Source: Hyphomicrobium sp. CS1BSMeth3
GTDB taxonomy: Bacteria; Pseudomonadota; Alphaproteobacteria; Rhizobiales; Hyphomicrobiaceae
Direction of reading: 5' to 3'
Assembly (NCBI RefSeq): GCF_900117415.1
Contig: NZ_FPEI01000004.1
Location: 930,001 to 994,000, forward strand
DNA: 64,000 nt
Shown: positions 25,149 to 61,244 of the stretch, piece by piece
Numbering within the stretch: position 1 is the stretch's first letter
How the letters are laid out: every line of letters starts with the position of its first letter
The notes under the pieces: generated by a model
The model's database searches: none
The model's input: the letters and a program-made list of their open reading frames with translations, nothing else
What the model was told of the DNA's origin: nothing
Position numbers and translations under genes: made by a program

Positions 25149-26144
25149 TTAAGCCGCCGCCTCATCGACAAACTTCTTGGCCTGCGCCACCCAATTGTCG
25201 CGGGCGACCCGGCCATTGAGCTTCAGCGCGCCATCGAGCGCCGCAATGCCGTTCGCGTCGAGGTCCGAGATCTGCCAGAAGTGATAGACGCCGAGATCGT
25301 TGAGGCTCTGCTCGAGCTTCGGGCTGATCCCGCTGATGCGCTTGAGGTCGTCCGCTTCGCCGCGCGGCGCGTCGATGCCGACGAACGCCGGAACGTCGGG
25401 CAGCTCCTCCTCTGGCGGCGCCTCGGAAGCACCGACGTCGATGCCCGCCGAGCTCTGGCTCCGGCCGAGACCGTCGATCGCGGCACGCGCGATGAGGTCG
25501 CAGTAGAGCGTGATCGCGCGGCCAGCGTCGTCATTGCCGGGGATCGGGAAATCGATGCCGTCGGGATCGCAGTTCGTGTCGACCACGGCGACGATCGGGA
25601 TCTTGAGCTTGCGCGCTTCCTTGATCGCGATGTCCTCCTTGTTCGTGTCGATCACGAACAGGAGGTCCGGGAGGCCGCCCATGTCACGGATGCCGCCAAG
25701 ACCCTGGTTGAGCTTGTCGCGCTCGCGCGTGAGGTTGAGCAGCTCCTTCTTGGTGCGGCCGTGGGTGTCGCCACCGAGCATGTCGTCGAGCTGGCGCAGG
25801 CGGCGGATCGACTGGGAGATGGTCTTCCAGTTGGTCAGCGTGCCGCCGAGCCAGCGGTGGTTGATGTAGTACTGCGCCGAGCGCTTGGCGGCGTCGGCAA
25901 CGGCCTCGCCGGCCTGCCGCTTGGTGCCGACGAAGAGCACGCGGCCACCCTTGGCGACGACATCGCTCACCGCGACCAGCGCCTGATGGAACAGCGGCAC
26001 GGTCTGCGCGAGGTCGACGATGTGGATGTTATTGCGGGCGCCGAAGATGAAGGGCGCCATTTTCGGGTTCCAGCGGTGGCTCTGGTGGCCGAAGTGAACG
26101 CCAGCTTCAAGGAGCTGACGCATATTGAATGCAGGCAGGGCCAT
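25149..26144 (-). CDS. rpsB: 30S ribosomal protein S2 with C-terminal helix-hairpin-helix-type extension
   Basis: This 331-residue protein has a standard S2 core of about 230 residues ([54 protein letters not shown]), which binds the 30S head-body junction. After an acidic linker it adds about 65 residues, starting [20 protein letters not shown] and ending [14 protein letters not shown]. This domain matches the three repeats of the membrane protein at 56571-58115 and is a known kind of addition in alphaproteobacterial S2. ATG 26144 is chosen because the conserved S2 start follows; the extra upstream frame is leader. Confidence 0.97.
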
Positions 26145-26199
26145 GCGTAAGGGCTTCCTATTTTCCGGTTGATCCTCCGCCCACCTGAGAAGGCCCTCA

Positions 26200-26253
26200 C
26201 CGATGGGATCAACCATCGGCAAAAAGCCCACCGGAGCGTCGGCCCGGGCTTTT
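26200..26253 (-). promoter_or_regulatory. rpsB leader with two hairpins, terminator-like
   Basis: In the 5' leader of rpsB, reading the minus strand, a hairpin with arms AAAAGCCC/GGGCTTTT (26222-26253) ends in a short T run. It is followed at once by a perfect 7-bp hairpin CCGATGG-GATCAA-CCATCGG (26200-26219). The start codon is 56 bp further on. A leader structure of this kind fits autoregulation by S2 or attenuation, but this is inference. Confidence 0.5.
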
Positions 26254-54867: not shown

Positions 54868-56469
54868 TCAGCACTGCCATTGGAACTCGGCCGTCTTGTA
54901 GCCCGCGTGGATCTGGCGCAACACGAACAGGCAGGCGCGATCGCCGACATATGCCTCGGCCCTCTCGCCGATCGCCAGCCCCTTCTCCTCGCCCTGGATG
55001 CGCACGCCGACAAGATCGCGACGGCCGCGGTAGGGTGCCGCAACGAAAGTGACGAGGGCGCTGGCGCTGCCGATCTGGATCTCGCGGCTCGTTCCCCGCT
55101 CGAGGGTGATAACCTCGGCCAGAGGGGCCTTGTAGGGCAGAGCGACGGCGAGAGCTGCCCTGTCCAGCGGCGGATCGCCGAAAGCCGCTCCGCACAGCAC
55201 CTGGAAATCGGCCTCTCGCGTCTTCAGGTTGATCTCGCGGAGGAAGATCCCGCACACTTCTTCCGGCCGGCTCAAGTGCACGAACTGGCCGACCCCTAGG
55301 CTCGCCGTTTCGCCGTTGACGCGGATCCCGACCAGGTCCCGCCGCCCCCGATATGGCGTTGCAATCATCGAGAACAGCACACGACCGTCGAGCAGATCGA
55401 GGCTCTTGTCTCCGGTGAGCGTCCACGGATCGCTCGGCAGGGAGCCGGGCTGCGGCGAATTTGCCCGCGCGTCGGGAGCTGATGGCGCAGGCGCGGACGG
55501 CGTTGCCGCCGCTTGCCTGCTCGAAAGCGTCTGCAGGCGCTCGCGCGCGAGCTCGGCATAGAACGAGCTGCCATAGCGCTTGATGAAAGCTTCCAGCACC
55601 GCCGGGCTCGTGCTCTCCCTGGCAGCCGCCCACGCCTCGGCGGCCTCGTCGCGCGGTGAAGCAACGGCGGCGCTCGGTGAGGCTGCGTTGGGCGCCCGGG
55701 GCGCGGCATCGAAATAAAAGCGGCCCGTGAGCGAGGAATGCTCCCAGGGCACCTGCTTGTTGCCCGTCGACTGCATGACGTCATTGCGCACGGCAATCAG
55801 CAGCGAGCTCAGATCCTCGCTGGACGCGCGCATGTTCCGCACGAGCGCGCCGGCGAACGGCGAGTTCCGACCGCCCCCATCGAGCGCGACGTTGCCGGGC
55901 TGCGTGGAGAAGCTGATCAGCGTCCCGACGCCCGCTTCGACACTCGCAAGGCCGCGGCCGATGCCGGCCGAGCGCGTCCCCATCGAACGCGCGAGGTTCT
56001 TCGCCAGCGGGTTATCGCGGCAGGCATCGAGGAACAGGATGTTCGTGCGCGCATGGCTCTCCATGGTGCGCTGAACGAGATCGAGGCGCACCATTTCGAA
56101 ATCGAGCGCCGCCGCAGCCGAGAGCTCCGCATCGACCGGAACGAGATAGTTCTGTCCCTGCACCTGGATGCCGTGGCCGGCATAGAAGAACACGCCGACG
56201 TCGGCCCCCTGAAGCGCGGCGGCAAAGGCCCTGACCGTCCGGTCGAACGCGGCCTTGTCGAGGTCATAGCCTTCGACGATCTGGAATCCGAAGCTCGTGA
56301 GCGCGGCGGCGACATCACCGGCGTCGTTCCGCGGATTGGCGAGCGTCGGCGTGTGCGCGTAGGCCGAATTGCCGATCACGAGCGCGACGCGCTTCTGCGC
56401 GCTGGCCGTCTCTGCAAAGCAGAATGCACCGACGACGAAAGCAATCAATACATGCAGCAATGCGCGCAT
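54868..56469 (-). CDS. Secreted caspase-fold (metacaspase-like) protein with C-terminal duplicated domain
   Basis: This 533-residue exported protein begins with a signal peptide (MRALLHVLIAFVVGAFCFAE, cleavage near SAQ). The caspase p20 domain has the catalytic dyad H99 (FYAGHG) and C150 (LDACRDNP). A linker with Pro/Ala-rich stretches leads to two copies of a domain sharing PYRGRRDLVGIR near residues 380 and 490, each with a conserved cysteine near its end. Bacterial caspase-fold proteins cleave after Arg or Lys or act as adaptors. ATG 56469 follows the signal peptide rule. It is last in the OmpA-peptide-H3TH run. Confidence 0.9.
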   Translation of the reverse strand: MRALLHVLIAFVVGAFCFAETASAQKRVALVIGNSAYAHTPTLANPRNDAGDVAAALTSFGFQIVEGYDLDKAAFDRTVRAFAAALQGADVGVFFYAGHGIQVQGQNYLVPVDAELSAAAALDFEMVRLDLVQRTMESHARTNILFLDACRDNPLAKNLARSMGTRSAGIGRGLASVEAGVGTLISFSTQPGNVALDGGGRNSPFAGALVRNMRASSEDLSSLLIAVRNDVMQSTGNKQVPWEHSSLTGRFYFDAAPRAPNAASPSAAVASPRDEAAEAWAAARESTSPAVLEAFIKRYGSSFYAELARERLQTLSSRQAAATPSAPAPSAPDARANSPQPGSLPSDPWTLTGDKSLDLLDGRVLFSMIATPYRGRRDLVGIRVNGETASLGVGQFVHLSRPEEVCGIFLREINLKTREADFQVLCGAAFGDPPLDRAALAVALPYKAPLAEVITLERGTSREIQIGSASALVTFVAAPYRGRRDLVGVRIQGEEKGLAIGERAEAYVGDRACLFVLRQIHAGYKTAEFQWQC

Positions 56470-56570
56470 TCCAAAATGCTCCGGTCTTCGGAAATGAAGC
56501 AGGCCCCTGCGGCACGCGATCACTGCGGCGCCACGAGGCCTATCATGCGCGAGCGAAAGCCCGTCGACAA

Positions 56571-58115
56571 TTACACTTCGCCGCGCTCGAAACGGCGCGA
56601 GAAATCCGTATGACCACCCGAGGCGAGAATGCGCGCCTGCTCGATCCAGTTCTCGCGCTCGATGCGGCCCTTGAACTCGAGCTTGGCATTGACCGTGCTC
56701 ACGTCATCGGCCGTCCAGTTGGCGATCTGCTCGTAGCTCGAAATGCCGAGCGCATTGAGCTTGCGCTCGATGAGCAGGCCGATCCCGCGAATGCGCTTGA
56801 GATCATCCGGCGTCGCGGGCGAGGCCGCAGCCATGCTGTCCGGCGCGCGGAAGGCTTCCGAACGCACCGAACGCATACCGGAGAGGTCCGGCGCACGCTC
56901 CGCGGGCTCGCTCTCGACGGCCGCAGCCTCGACTTCAGGAGTGGTGGTGGGCGCCGCCACGACAGCGGGCGGTGCTTCTGTCGAAGGTGCTGCCGCGGCG
57001 ACGGGCAGGACGGCCGTCGGCTCCGGCGGACCGCCGCGCTCGTCGAAGGCGCGCGAATAGGCGGTCGCGCCGCCGCGCGCGAGGATCTGCGCCTGCTCGA
57101 TCCAGTTCTCGCGGCTGACCCGGCCGCTGAAGCCGAACAGTCCTTCCACGCGCGTGACGTCGTCCGCGCTCCAGCCCGCGATCTGCGAATAACGCGTCAC
57201 ATCGTGCGCGCTCAGCACATCCTCGATCTCTACGCTGATGCCGCCAATGCGCTGGAGATTGTCACGGCCGCTGACGCTCGCCGGCACCGGCGAAGGAGCT
57301 GCTGCCACGGCCCGCGGCTCGGCGAACGCCGCCCGCGTGGAAACCTCCGGTCCGCGCTCGGGCAGCGGCGAAGCGGCATCGGGGCCTTCAGCGCGCAGCG
57401 CCACGCTCGCGAGGCCGGTGGCATAGGACGTGGCACCGCCGCGGGCGAGGATCTGCGCCTGCTCGATCCAGTTCTCGCGCTCGATGCGGCCGCTGAAGCC
57501 GAGGGCCTCGCTGATCGTGCGTACATGGTTGCTGCTCCAGGCCGCGATATCCGCATACTGGGCAACCCCGAGCTCATTGAGTTTCGCCGCCAGCTCGCCG
57601 TCGATCCCGCGGATCCGCGTGAGATCATCGCCGGCGGAGTCTGCCGGCTCCGGGGCAATCGGCGGCGTCGGGACGGCCATTCTCTCAGCCACCGCCGCGG
57701 CAACGGCGGCCGCAGCCGAGACGGGCTCGCCGATCGTGGTCCGCGGCGGCGCATCTGCGGCCTTCGCAGGAGCGGGCCGCGGAGGCTCAGGCTCGGCCAC
57801 GGGCTCCGCTGCTGCGGCATCGCCCGGCGCATCGACATCGGCGCGACGGAAGGCCTTCGGCGGCGGCGATCCGGGGACCACCCGCGGAGCAGTCTCCGGA
57901 GCCGATGCCGGAGCAGATGCAGGCACGAAGACGACCGGCGGCCGGGAATCACGTGCCGGCGGCGTCGCGGGAGCCGGCGCCGCGCCCTGCCATTCGGGCT
58001 CCTCGACTTTCGCGGCCCCCGCGCCGAACAGCTTGCGGGCGAGACAGCCGACGATACAGCCCGCGAAATACGCGATCGTCAGAATGAGCAGCGTCTGCCA
58101 GGTCAGCGCGATCAT
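56571..58115 (-). CDS. Membrane-anchored protein with three helix-hairpin-helix-type (COG3743-like) domains
   Basis: This 514-residue protein has one N-terminal membrane anchor (residues 6-24, GCIVG motif) and a long Pro/Ala-rich cytoplasmic or periplasmic region. Three domains of about 70 residues lie at ~162-231, ~283-353 and ~436-507. Each starts DDLxRIxGI and ends GRIERENWIEQAQILAxGG. They match the predicted helix-3-turn-helix domain of COG3743, which otherwise appears fused to ribosomal protein S2 and to NuoE-like proteins. No nuclease active-site residues are visible, so binding is more likely than catalysis. It lies between the 33-residue peptide and the caspase-fold gene. Confidence 0.9.
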   Translation of the reverse strand: MIALTWQTLLILTIAYFAGCIVGCLARKLFGAGAAKVEEPEWQGAAPAPATPPARDSRPPVVFVPASAPASAPETAPRVVPGSPPPKAFRRADVDAPGDAAAAEPVAEPEPPRPAPAKAADAPPRTTIGEPVSAAAAVAAAVAERMAVPTPPIAPEPADSAGDDLTRIRGIDGELAAKLNELGVAQYADIAAWSSNHVRTISEALGFSGRIERENWIEQAQILARGGATSYATGLASVALRAEGPDAASPLPERGPEVSTRAAFAEPRAVAAAPSPVPASVSGRDNLQRIGGISVEIEDVLSAHDVTRYSQIAGWSADDVTRVEGLFGFSGRVSRENWIEQAQILARGGATAYSRAFDERGGPPEPTAVLPVAAAAPSTEAPPAVVAAPTTTPEVEAAAVESEPAERAPDLSGMRSVRSEAFRAPDSMAAASPATPDDLKRIRGIGLLIERKLNALGISSYEQIANWTADDVSTVNAKLEFKGRIERENWIEQARILASGGHTDFSRRFERGEV

Positions 58116-58157
58116 CCACGTGCACTCCGAACCACTGTCACCGCTCTGCTCATGACC

Positions 58158-58259
58158 TCAGCGATCCTCGCGCCGGGAGCACGTGCTCCAGCCGACGAAC
58201 ACGCCGAGCAGGAAGGCGCAGCCCACGTAAAAAATCAGGTGTTGCAGCAGGTAGTCCAT
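58158..58259 (-). CDS. 33-residue single-pass membrane peptide
   Basis: The peptide is one hydrophobic helix (HLIFYVGCAFLLGVFVGW) with a basic/acidic tail CSRREDR. The start ATG 58259 follows GAGGATCCGGCG (GAGGA, seven-base spacing). It sits 19 bp after the OmpA gene and 42 bp before the helix-hairpin-helix gene on the same strand. Glycines at positions 19 and 23 form a GxxxG pair, and the anchor of the neighbouring protein has glycines at the same positions 19 and 23. It may pack against that anchor, which is inference. Confidence 0.65.
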   Translation of the reverse strand: MDYLLQHLIFYVGCAFLLGVFVGWSTCSRREDR

Positions 58260-58278
58260 CGCCGGATCCTCGCTGGTA

Positions 58279-60774
58279 TCACTTCGCCTTGACGGTGAAC
58301 TCGATGCGACGGTTACGGGCCATGCCCTCCCGCGTATCGTTCGGAGCAACCGGACGCGATGCGCCATAACCGATCGCCTTCATGCGCTCGGCCGGCACGC
58401 CCCTCTGAGCCAGATAGTCGGCGACCGCCTGCGCACGCCGCTCCGAGAGGGGCTGATTGCGTTCGTCGATGCCCTCCGCGTCGGTGTGGCCCTCGATTTC
58501 GATCGTGACATCAGGGCAAGCCTGCGCCGTTTGCGCGAGCCTGCGCAGTGTCGGCAGGCTGCGCCGATCGAGCTCCGCGCTCGCACGCGCAAACTGGATC
58601 ACGCCTTCGCTGGAGGCCGTGCGCAGGGCCTTCTGACAGGCCTCGGCCTCCGCATCCTTGCGCGCCTGCTCTTCCGAGACCTTTCGCGTCTCGGCATCGC
58701 GGACTTTCCGCGCGGCCTCTTCCTCGGCACGCTGCTTGGCGTCGCTTTCGGCACGCTGGCGGGCTGCAGCCTCGGCCGCGCGGCGCGCTTCCTCCGCCGC
58801 CCGCTGACGCGCCTCGTCCTCGGCGCGCTGCTTGGTCTCCGCTTCGGCGCGCACACGAGCCTGCGCCGCTTCGGCCGCACGCCGTGCTTCATCCGCGGCG
58901 CGCTGGCGGGCTTCGTCCTCGGTCCGCCGCTTGTTCTCCGCTTCGGCGGCCGCGCGCTTCTTCGCGGATTCTTCCGCCGTGCGCCGCGCCAGCTCCTCGG
59001 CGGCGATCACCGCATCGGAACGCACGACGACGACATCGCGGGCCGTATAGCCTTCGGGGACATCGCGCCCGAGTGCATCGCGAATGGCCGCCTGCGCCGC
59101 GACATCGCGCGCCTCGCCTTCGAGACGCAGCGTCTGCTCGGCGATCTCTGCCCGTCCCAGTCTGAGGCGCGCCAACTGCGTCAGCCCGGCGAGCGCGGTG
59201 CGCGTCCACTTCTCGGAGGCCGCATCGACGATCTGCATCCGGTCGACGACATTGCGGCCATCGAAGAGGCGAGCCGCGGTCGACATCAACTGATCGCGCA
59301 CGGCCGCGCCCGGTACCTGCCCCTCGAGAACGACATCGCCTTGGGCGCCGGCTTGCGCCGACCAGCGCAGCGCGGGCTCCGCGGGTGTCTTGCTCGCGAG
59401 CCGAACCTCTGCATCGCAGTCGCGCCCGGCCGCCGATTGAATTTCACCCGGCAGGCTCCGCGCCGCGTCGGCTTCGGCCGTACCCTCGACGAGCATCCGC
59501 CGATTGGTGAGATCGAGCCGCCCATTGCCGAGCTTTGCCAGTGCCGCAATGCCGATGTCGAGGCACCGCTGCCAGCCCGGCGCCGCCCCCGTCCCGAGCT
59601 CGAGCTGATCCACGACCCGCACACCCGAGAGGCGTGCCTGCGCGAGCCCGAGCAGCGCCGCGCGGGCTGCCTCGCTCGGGGCATAGCCTCTGAGCGTCAC
59701 GGCGCCTCCCTCGATGGACAAGGACGTCCGATAGGGGCTGACCGGCTTGATCGTCGGCTCGCGGAAGGTGATCCGCTCCGCCAGGCGATAGGCGGCGGGA
59801 ATGCCCTCTTTGAGCTTGGCGCGCACCTCTTCAGCAGTCGCCTCGCGGATGGCCACGCCGTTGAGCGTGATCGTCTGATCGCGCAGCTCGGCTGTGCCCT
59901 CTTCGAGCTGCAGGAGCTCCCGGAGCACGACCTGCGCCGCCGCCGCCCATCCATCCGGCTCGCCGCGCGCCGGCATCATGCCATCCGTCAGGCGTACCTG
60001 CGGCGAGAGCTGCCGGAGCGCCGCCAGGAGATCTCCACGCGCCTGATCGCTCGGCACGGCGCCGCGCACATCGAGCTGGCCGTCGGCGAGGCGCGCGGTC
60101 AACACATAGGGCGCCACGATCGGCGGCTCGACCCGATCGGCCTTGAGGCTGATGCCCGGCGGCAGGCCGGTCGCCAGTGAGCTCTTCAACGTGCGGTACG
60201 TGCCTGCGTCGACCGCCTCGCCGGTCACCGTCAGCTCGGTGCCTTCCAGGCGGATGGTTCCTGCTTTCAGAAGTGCGAGCTGCTTGAGCGCGAACCCGAC
60301 GCCGCCGAGCCAGATATCCAGCGCGGGAGCGCCACGCGCGAGCGTCAACCGGTCGACGATCTCGTTGCTCGGGTAGGTCGCGCGCGCAATGCCGATGATT
60401 TCGCGGCGCGTCTTCTCGTTCGGCACGAGGCCGGTGAGGCGCACGCGGCCTTCGCGTTTGGTGGCGGACCAGTCGTAGCGCTCGACGGCGTCGATGAGGC
60501 GCGCATCATTGCGCACGATCCGCACGCCAAACGTCCGCGCCACGCCATCCGCCGCGCGGGCCGGCTCTGCTTCCTCGGCGGCGAGACCCGTGAGTATGGC
60601 GTCGCGTCCATCGAATGTTGCGTTCGCCCATCCAAGTCCGGCCGCATCGAGCGTCTGCCGGGCGCGATCGCTCAGATCCTTCTCGATGCGCCCGCGCTCG
60701 CCGATCACGGCTACGCCCGCGAGCAGAAGAATTGGGATGATCCCGAGAAGCCAGCGTAACGGATTACACTTCAT
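58279..60774 (-). CDS. OmpA family protein with BON-like repeats and a coiled coil
   Basis: This 831-residue envelope protein starts with an N-terminal hydrophobic segment (NPLRWLLGIIPILLLAGVAV). The next ~450 residues contain several BON-like repeats recognisable by ...LKSSLATGLPPG..., ...RGAVPSDQARGDLLAAL... and similar. A highly charged coiled coil follows (residues ~600-700, EARQRAADEARRAAEAAQAR). It ends with an OmpA C-terminal peptidoglycan-binding domain: EIEGHTDAEGIDERNQPLSE and ARNRRIEFTVKAK. The frame opens at 60918, but ATG 60774 precedes the hydrophobic segment. First gene of the four-gene cluster. Confidence 0.92.
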   Translation of the reverse strand: MKCNPLRWLLGIIPILLLAGVAVIGERGRIEKDLSDRARQTLDAAGLGWANATFDGRDAILTGLAAEEAEPARAADGVARTFGVRIVRNDARLIDAVERYDWSATKREGRVRLTGLVPNEKTRREIIGIARATYPSNEIVDRLTLARGAPALDIWLGGVGFALKQLALLKAGTIRLEGTELTVTGEAVDAGTYRTLKSSLATGLPPGISLKADRVEPPIVAPYVLTARLADGQLDVRGAVPSDQARGDLLAALRQLSPQVRLTDGMMPARGEPDGWAAAAQVVLRELLQLEEGTAELRDQTITLNGVAIREATAEEVRAKLKEGIPAAYRLAERITFREPTIKPVSPYRTSLSIEGGAVTLRGYAPSEAARAALLGLAQARLSGVRVVDQLELGTGAAPGWQRCLDIGIAALAKLGNGRLDLTNRRMLVEGTAEADAARSLPGEIQSAAGRDCDAEVRLASKTPAEPALRWSAQAGAQGDVVLEGQVPGAAVRDQLMSTAARLFDGRNVVDRMQIVDAASEKWTRTALAGLTQLARLRLGRAEIAEQTLRLEGEARDVAAQAAIRDALGRDVPEGYTARDVVVVRSDAVIAAEELARRTAEESAKKRAAAEAENKRRTEDEARQRAADEARRAAEAAQARVRAEAETKQRAEDEARQRAAEEARRAAEAAARQRAESDAKQRAEEEAARKVRDAETRKVSEEQARKDAEAEACQKALRTASSEGVIQFARASAELDRRSLPTLRRLAQTAQACPDVTIEIEGHTDAEGIDERNQPLSERRAQAVADYLAQRGVPAERMKAIGYGASRPVAPNDTREGMARNRRIEFTVKAK

Positions 60775-60983: not shown

Positions 60984-61012
60984 ACTATAGACAAGGCATA
61001 CGCGCTTTCCAA
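60984..61012 (-). promoter_or_regulatory. Candidate sigma-70 promoter of the OmpA/caspase cluster
   Basis: On the minus strand TTGGAA (61007-61012) is followed after exactly 17 bp by TATAGT (60984-60989). Transcription would start near 60977, giving a leader of about 200 nt before the ATG at 60774. Confidence 0.45.
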
Positions 61013-61166: not shown

Positions 61167-61244
61167 CTAAAGCGTCTTTGGACCTCGAATGCGACATTGA
61201 GCCCGACCCGAACCGAGGGTCGCATTCGAGGTCCGACGCTTTAG
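61167..61244. repeat. Family B palindromic repeat, copy 2
   Basis: This is an intact 78-bp palindrome with outer arms CTAAAGC/GCTTTAG and inner arms ACCTCGAATGCGAC/GTCGCATTCGAGGT. Compared with copy 1 (14782), the outer arms differ at the same position on both sides (G-C pairs replaced by A-T pairs), so pairing is kept. It lies in the divergent promoter space 142 bp before leuD. Confidence 0.88.

Follow-up and report, generated by a model that had tools for sequence, protein, structure and literature searches.

A probable arfABC-type operon in Hyphomicrobium and related Alphaproteobacteria joins genes for an OmpA/BON protein, a single-span micropeptide and a helix-hairpin-helix membrane protein

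Which genes belong together in a putative envelope gene cluster of Hyphomicrobium sp. CS1BSMeth3, and does the cluster resemble any known system? We analyzed a window of 64,000 nucleotides from contig NZ_FPEI01000004.1 (genome of 6.02 Mb in 6 contigs), in which four successive minus-strand genes encode an OmpA/BON protein, a peptide of 33 residues, a membrane protein with helix-hairpin-helix (HhH) domains and a caspase-fold protein. A preliminary description of this DNA had treated the four genes as one cluster and knew of no named system with such a composition. Its account of the layout was borne out by the open reading frame (ORF) coordinates, which give gaps of 19 bp (OmpA/BON to peptide), 42 bp (peptide to HhH) and 101 bp (HhH to caspase); the OmpA and BON domains exceeded the Pfam cut-offs, and three HhH units could be located, with HHH_5 over its cut-off. 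Judged from comparison with related genomes, however, the conserved unit is made up of the first three genes and not of all four, and this trio has the layout of a named system, the mycobacterial arfABC operon (ompATb operon, Rv0899-Rv0901). The gene order and homology of the trio are well supported by these comparisons. We think that the trio is probably an alphaproteobacterial operon of the arfABC type, which would encode a membrane complex with a cytoplasmic HhH adaptor. The names ArfA and ArfB are also in use for ribosome-rescue factors, which we take to be unrelated.

The OmpA/BON and HhH proteins were searched in 60 genomes including that of the window, and 50 neighborhoods (the window's and 49 others, about 5-17 kb each, some ending at contig ends) were read. 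The remaining ten genomes (G030, G036, G037, G038, G040, G043, G047, G051, G057 and G058) were not read further and were counted as lacking the pair; the two genes of G030 are on separate contigs. The OmpA/BON and HhH genes adjoin on one strand at 45 of the 50 loci, corresponding to 45 of the 60 genomes, although genome counts are not independent events. Three of the five loci without the pair are short contigs of 5-7 kb (G003, G005 and G009); in the other two (G012 and G022) no such pair is seen. On the 3' side of the OmpA/BON gene, a short hydrophobic, peptide-like ORF is present at 45 of the 50 loci, including G053, where it is joined in one gene with the HhH part, and G005 and G009, where no HhH match was found. 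The genes flanking the trio vary between genera, as exemplified by the aldehyde-dehydrogenase-like and lipoamide-dehydrogenase-like genes (named by eye) in G010 and G033. At one locus of the same genus as the window (L039, genome G001), the HhH gene is split across two frames, and is thus either frameshifted or mis-assembled.

To follow the peptide by itself, a profile (A1) was built from 42 of the 45 peptide ORFs, leaving out L080, L083 and L087. The 42 aligned peptides, mostly of 31-36 residues with one of 46, share the consensus MDYLxxKLxWYxxxAFxxGxxVGWxSC. This profile found a match at E<=0.01 in 100 of 199 whole genomes of the order. We read the surroundings of 82 matches at E<=1e-5, 81 of them from this search outside the window and one from a search of the class; an OmpA-domain gene lies directly upstream in 73, an HhH gene lies downstream or is fused in 69, and both are present in 63. 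When the 15 of these loci that had contributed to the profile are subtracted, 67 matches are left, with 58 OmpA neighbors, 56 HhH neighbors and 50 with both; both neighbors are lacking in just three cases, including one at the edge of a contig. As a control, 77 OmpA loci of other groups, with 12,468 ORFs, were searched with the profile, and none of these ORFs matched at E<0.05. Among 142 genomes drawn from the class, the peptide profile matched at E<=1e-4 only in G124 and G139 besides the window, and the ArfA module was found at E<=1e-5 in seven, including the window's genome. This scarcity suggests that the trio is mainly a feature of the order. Searches of plasmids gave one good named neighbor pair, in Rhizobium lusitanum, and a Shinella stretch contained HhH genes with no OmpA or peptide match. 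The co-occurrence in the same order expected for four genes is thus found for the first three and fails for the caspase gene, as detailed below.

Since an ORF of 33 codons might arise by chance, its mode of change is informative. Pairwise comparison of four copies from the same genus shows the most differences at the third codon position in all six cases. This codon-position pattern and the conservation across the order suggest that the peptide ORF behaves like a real gene. A chance origin was considered and rejected in view of the codon-position bias, the occurrence in 100 of 199 genomes and the linkage to the same neighbors.

The resemblance to arfABC is clearest for the first gene. Its product begins with a membrane span, continues with four BON-type ArfA modules and a stretch rich in Ala, Glu and Arg, and ends with an OmpA-like peptidoglycan-binding domain; OmpA, BON_like and BON are matched in Pfam. 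The NCBIfam model of the ArfA N-terminal domain (NF051434, ArfA_OmpATb_N) gave 122.9 bits against a membership cut-off of 81. This score is summed over four repeats, each of which reaches 33-41 bits and stays under the cut-off singly. The same cut-off was passed by six of ten relatives of the protein, and its best match in the PDB is Rv0899 (2l26, E 9.4e-26). Rv0899-like proteins of nitrogen-fixing bacteria belong to the same family as the window's protein. ArfA-like proteins are reported chiefly from bacteria that take part in nitrogen fixation and metabolism, according to the available text of a review (Marassi 2011 as cited in PMC3816664).

The second gene occupies the position of arfB, directly after the ArfA-like gene. 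A piece of the Rv0899 OmpA domain was used to fetch 80 loci, three of them mycobacterial, in which arfA is followed by a protein of 49-51 residues starting MDFVIQWL and then by a protein with one N-terminal span; two such M. ostraviense proteins were assigned by NCBIfam to ArfB and to ArfC with a sunset domain. ArfB sequences were further collected from 26 mycobacterial-side loci, of which eight (seven distinct) showed the end of arfA together with ArfB; the pattern used found no OmpA end in the other 18. Profile-profile comparison of the peptide family with the seven ArfB sequences gave an hhalign probability of 93-94% and a score of 29.6, above the highest scores among 150 whole-column shuffles (17.1) and 150 core-only shuffles (27.0), whereas reversed ArfB scored 6.6 and the OmpA N-terminal span 8.5. 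Among 18,950 NCBIfam models, ArfB_Rv0900 was the one matched by most peptides (15 of 42), although weakly (best E 5.5e-4), and also by most HhH anchors (6 of 32), likewise at weak E-values. In the reverse direction, the curated ArfB model (NF051435) had matches at E<=2 in 158 of the 199 genomes of the order. Among the roughly 150 matches listed, at least nine overlap places found by the peptide profile (G056, G293, G279, G207, G318, G243, G280, G055 and G278), and the match in G298 is in the same reading frame as the peptide-profile place. A rough estimate for chance overlap among the listed matches is 0.005, and the model also responds in controls, 10 of 14 control genomes having matches at E<=2. 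When places in the mycobacterial genome G202 are ranked by the peptide profile, its two arfB genes come first and second (E 0.22 and 1), with a lead of 0.1 bit between second and third place. This genome, a Mycobacterium MAG, has two arfABC-like loci (L089 and L335). Because the cut-off of the curated ArfB model was not reached, we call the peptide ArfB-related, a likeness apparent at the level of profiles, and not a member of the curated family.

In the place of arfC, the third gene encodes a protein with an N-terminal span, a linker rich in Pro and Ala, and three HhH domains. The number of HhH repeats ranges from 1 to 7 at 40 loci and gives no support for a link to the length of the ArfA-like protein (Spearman 0.06, p 0.70, 40 loci). 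Its anchor is related to the peptide: the profile-profile score between the two is 28.3, which was reached by none of 300 shuffles, and the peptide profile also matches the anchors of the HhH proteins of G054, G056, G307, G308 and G283. On this profile-level likeness, the peptide and the anchor span of the HhH protein are paralogues. Examination of 95 matches of the peptide profile up to E 1e-3 (excluding the window, three matches between 4e-4 and 1e-3 and everything weaker; the loci L184, L241 and L258 are short and end near the peptide) revealed the peptide in frame with an HhH domain in 12. Seven proteins, those of G053, G334, G306, G358, G276, G258 and Rhizobium lusitanum, combine a peptide span, an extra span, an anchor span and the HhH part (spans assigned by eye). 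At two further loci (L247 in G011 and L271 in G034), an unknown protein of about 300 residues, with a conserved 'NSTVFAI.G.DKAGR' stretch, carries a second peptide-like span as a fusion, and there is no OmpA or HhH gene beside it.

The trio therefore shares with arfABC the order arfA-arfB-arfC on one strand, comprising an ArfA protein with BON modules and an OmpA domain, a small single-span protein related to ArfB and a larger single-span protein, as well as a similar charge pattern. The second gene also starts at a short distance from the first in both, 11-12 nt after the stop of arfA in mycobacteria and 19 nt after that of the OmpA/BON gene in the window. The two operons also differ. ArfA has one module in mycobacteria and four together with the Ala/Glu/Arg-rich stretch in the trio; the seven ArfB sequences have 37-51 residues, as compared with mostly 31-36 in the 42 aligned peptides; the third protein carries a sunset domain in mycobacterial ArfC and HhH domains in the trio; and the envelope of the trio's host is presumably Gram-negative, unlike that of the mycobacterial host. 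Our partial literature search found no description of the peptide or of the HhH gene beside an ArfA-like gene, which does not show the trio to be unpublished.

Could the likeness to arfABC have arisen by convergence, with BON and OmpA domains joined independently and the match between peptide and ArfB reflecting generic short spans of the GxxxG type? Several observations weigh against our reading, and some of them favor convergence. The window's peptide has no NCBIfam match at all, and the curated ArfB model reached its cut-off in none of the 199 genomes of the order. The best core-only shuffle came within 2.6 score units of the peptide-ArfB comparison, and short spans can converge. In two of the three mycobacterial genomes, G201 and G203, arfB was not among the places found by the peptide profile at E<=10, while the ArfC span of G201 was (E 1.4). 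For the third gene, the ArfC models (NF051433 and NF051455) were not matched over their cut-offs, none of 32 HhH anchors matched ArfC_N, the score of 11.5 between HhH anchor and ArfC span was reached by 3 of 150 shuffles and is not significant, and neither Pfam nor NCBIfam found a sunset domain in the window's HhH protein, so that the cytoplasmic domains of the third gene products differ. In addition, four of the ten relatives of the ArfA-like protein remain under the NF051434 cut-off, no peptide was found at E<=0.01 in 99 of the 199 genomes of the order, and the trio is rare outside it. On the other hand, the agreement of three positions in order and type, the ArfA cut-off passed by the window's protein, a peptide-ArfB score above all 300 shuffles and far above the reversed and OmpA-span controls, and the predominance of ArfB_Rv0900 among the models matched by the peptides count against independent assembly, and we regard convergence as rather improbable. 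An operon of the arfABC type could also be read as encoding a transporter for ammonia or small solutes, in which the ArfA-like protein would oligomerize into a pore and have the two single-span proteins as accessory subunits of the channel. The NCBIfam names of the families (channel-forming ArfA, channel accessory ArfB/ArfC) speak for such a pore, as do the OmpATb pore models and low-pH permeability data described in the portions available of two reviews (PMC3816664, PMC6151718). By contrast, the same portions of PMC3816664 state that the solved structure has no transmembrane barrel and call the porin function controversial, and in our view four modules behind an N-terminal anchor suit a strut better than a porin. 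We therefore hold a pore to be unlikely, if somewhat less so than convergence.

With the fourth gene included, the cluster had been suggested as a possible module of regulated proteolysis or envelope stress; on such a reading, the caspase would act on the BON/OmpA protein or its partners. The caspase fold itself is not in doubt, the Peptidase_C14 domain scoring 151.8 bits against a Pfam cut-off of 21.4 with the dyad His99/Cys151 intact, and the suggestion that the protein is exported agrees with an N-terminus that by eye resembles a signal peptide. A single module is compatible with the common strand, the 101-bp gap, the lack of a minus-strand terminator-like match and the presence of an adjoining caspase, 81-83% identical to the window's, in G002 and G004. 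OmpA domains were moreover reported in 14 of 217 predicted metacaspase operons in the part of an earlier survey available to us (PMC3501461), and such neighborhoods are accordingly not new. Nevertheless, the caspase stands beside the trio only in the window's genome (G000), G002 and G004, that is, at 3 of 50 loci, all of one genus. In G001, another member of the genus, the gene pair that trails the caspase in the window (starts MCSRYNLT and MTRETA) comes after the HhH gene and leaves no space for a caspase; this genome keeps the trio and the downstream flank that it shares with the window. The G003 locus is broken by contig ends. No caspase match at E<=1e-4 occurs in the other 47 loci read, and the caspase homologues found elsewhere in the relatives lie away from the loci read. 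Because the linkage is limited to one genus and is missing in G001, the four-gene proteolysis module was rejected, and we give it very little credence. On this distribution, the caspase gene is an accessory, genus-level neighbor of the trio. Its product resembles the prokaryotic caspase homologues (metacaspases and orthocaspases) in the Peptidase_C14 domain, the His/Cys dyad and the exported N-terminus (by eye), and differs from them in two C-terminal repeats of about 90 residues around 'PYRGRRDLVGIRV', which have no Pfam name over the cut-off. Outside the genus, none of the loci read shows such a gene linked to the trio.

How might the three products of an arfABC-type operon be arranged? The N-terminal flank of the OmpA/BON span has 51 Lys/Arg and no Asp/Glu, which points to an N-in, C-out orientation. 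The HhH anchor has 1 Lys/Arg in its N-flank and 85 in its C-flank, and from this pattern the HhH domains are predicted to face the cytoplasm and not the periplasm, the side of the OmpA domain. For the peptide, the N-flank has no Lys/Arg and 31 Asp/Glu, and the C-flank is mixed (60 Lys/Arg, 70 Asp/Glu), which makes the charge argument for its orientation weak and counts against our arrangement. The fusions suggest a parallel orientation of peptide and anchor, because they contain an odd number of spans. Most likely, the three products form a complex in the inner membrane that is linked to peptidoglycan and has an HhH adaptor on its cytoplasmic side. The three genes would be cotranscribed; the ArfA-like protein, anchored in the inner membrane, would cross the periplasm and tie the membrane to peptidoglycan through a variable number of BON modules; and the peptide and the HhH anchor, parallel (N-out, C-in) and packed together in the inner membrane, would form a subcomplex with it. 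The HhH domains could then read or recruit a partner in the cytoplasm, perhaps the same one to which ribosomal proteins and NuoE attach through their HhH tails. Under stress, the complex might tune the working of the envelope, much as arfABC hastens ammonia release and growth or adaptation at low pH in M. tuberculosis, where pore formation is disputed (PMC3816664 and PMC6151718, in the sections available). By analogy, a role in pH or envelope adaptation is our best guess, offered tentatively. In the accessible part of a rhizobial study, BON-domain genes are induced by aluminium stress; the protein described contains just one BON domain, and the study does not show that it is the product of the ArfA-like gene (PMC8909678).

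The HhH domain is found outside the operon as well. A query with one HhH domain in the window's genome found only the three repeats of the operon protein, ribosomal protein S2 and an L19-type protein (identified by eye). In relatives, 40 further regions were surveyed, which were chosen from the stronger non-operon matches and not at random. They contain 41 HhH proteins, of which seven match S2 and two match L19 by BLAST, and about eight appear L21-like and about 16 NuoE-like by eye. Ten of the 41 were checked with NCBIfam, confirming two as L21 and five as NuoE, while three match in the HhH tail only. The tails of S2, L19, L21, NuoE and the phasin PhaH have the same HhH domain as the operon protein, which carries 1-7 copies on a membrane anchor instead of one tail on a soluble protein. 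The HhH domain is thus common to the third Arf protein and the S2, L19 and L21 tails in the window's clade, and the sunset domain of ArfC is also present in NCBIfam variant models of L17, L4, L20 and S2. In three mycobacterial genomes, the sunset domain was found in ArfC-type proteins and in one other long protein each, and on none of the ribosomal proteins, so that for sunset the parallel with ribosomal proteins comes from the NCBIfam variant models. The long proteins with a C-terminal sunset domain are at L292, L293 and L294, one per genome searched. Two unrelated domains, HhH and sunset, would accordingly each serve as a ribosomal tail and as the cytoplasmic part of a third Arf protein, a correlation drawn from domain assignments. 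In one speculative and, in our estimate, doubtful interpretation, the third Arf protein serves to dock the translation machinery at the membrane. Under envelope stress, ribosomes (or some factor that binds the tails) would be drawn to places in the inner membrane that are held to peptidoglycan, and the 33-residue peptide would control the assembly.

The features of the window are collected in Table 1. The promoter-like site lies about 210 bp 5' of the OmpA/BON start, in agreement with the candidate promoter that had been suggested, although the match is weak. The region contains three promoter-like matches, two of which are the same site, as compared with 0.4 +/- 0.6 in shuffles, and three terminator-like matches, none of them on the minus strand. 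Together, the promoter-like site and the lack of a minus-strand terminator-like match are weak evidence for a single transcript. Further upstream of the ArfA-like gene there is a perfect 16-nt inverted repeat (arms 61180-61195 and 61219-61234), and a 29-nt pattern spanning one of its arms occurs once in the window.

Table 1. Positions of the genes, domains and signals discussed, numbered from the first nucleotide of the window
Feature	Positions	Strand	Basis
OmpA/BON (ArfA-like) gene	58279-60774	minus	ORF, 831 aa
ArfA module 1	60160-60465	minus	NF051434 match
ArfA module 2	59791-60084	minus	NF051434 match
ArfA module 3	59455-59724	minus	NF051434 match
ArfA module 4	59053-59340	minus	NF051434 match
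OmpA-like domain	58309-58593	minus	PF00691, 78-83.8 bits, cut-off 27.2
Peptide gene	58158-58259	minus	ORF, 33 aa, single-span, ArfB-related
HhH membrane protein gene, ArfC position	56571-58115	minus	ORF, 514 aa
HhH domain 1	57420-57632	minus	domain query
HhH domain 2	57039-57266	minus	domain query
HhH domain 3	56574-56819	minus	domain query
Caspase-fold (Peptidase_C14) gene	54868-56469	minus	ORF, 533 aa; genus-level neighbor, outside conserved core
Sigma-70-like promoter match, weak	60984-61012	minus	-35/-10-like site, upstream of trio
rpsB (30S ribosomal protein S2) with C-terminal HhH tail	25149-26231	minus	PRK12311, 600.5 bits, cut-off 526; outside operon

If the trio is indeed arfABC-like, the layout of this mycobacterial acid-adaptation operon, which is poorly understood, would extend to a large order of soil and plant bacteria, among which harmless strains are available for its study. 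The trio would also add a conserved family of micropeptides, mostly of 31-36 residues and occurring in roughly half the 199 sampled genomes of the order, which lies beyond the curated ArfB model. The fusions of peptide and anchor predict directly which partners are in contact and how they are oriented. The occurrence of HhH and sunset domains in both the third Arf protein and ribosomal tails raises a new question about a link between translation and the envelope. If the docking interpretation were true, two lineages would have put the same kind of tail on their ribosomes and on a wall-anchored Arf complex.

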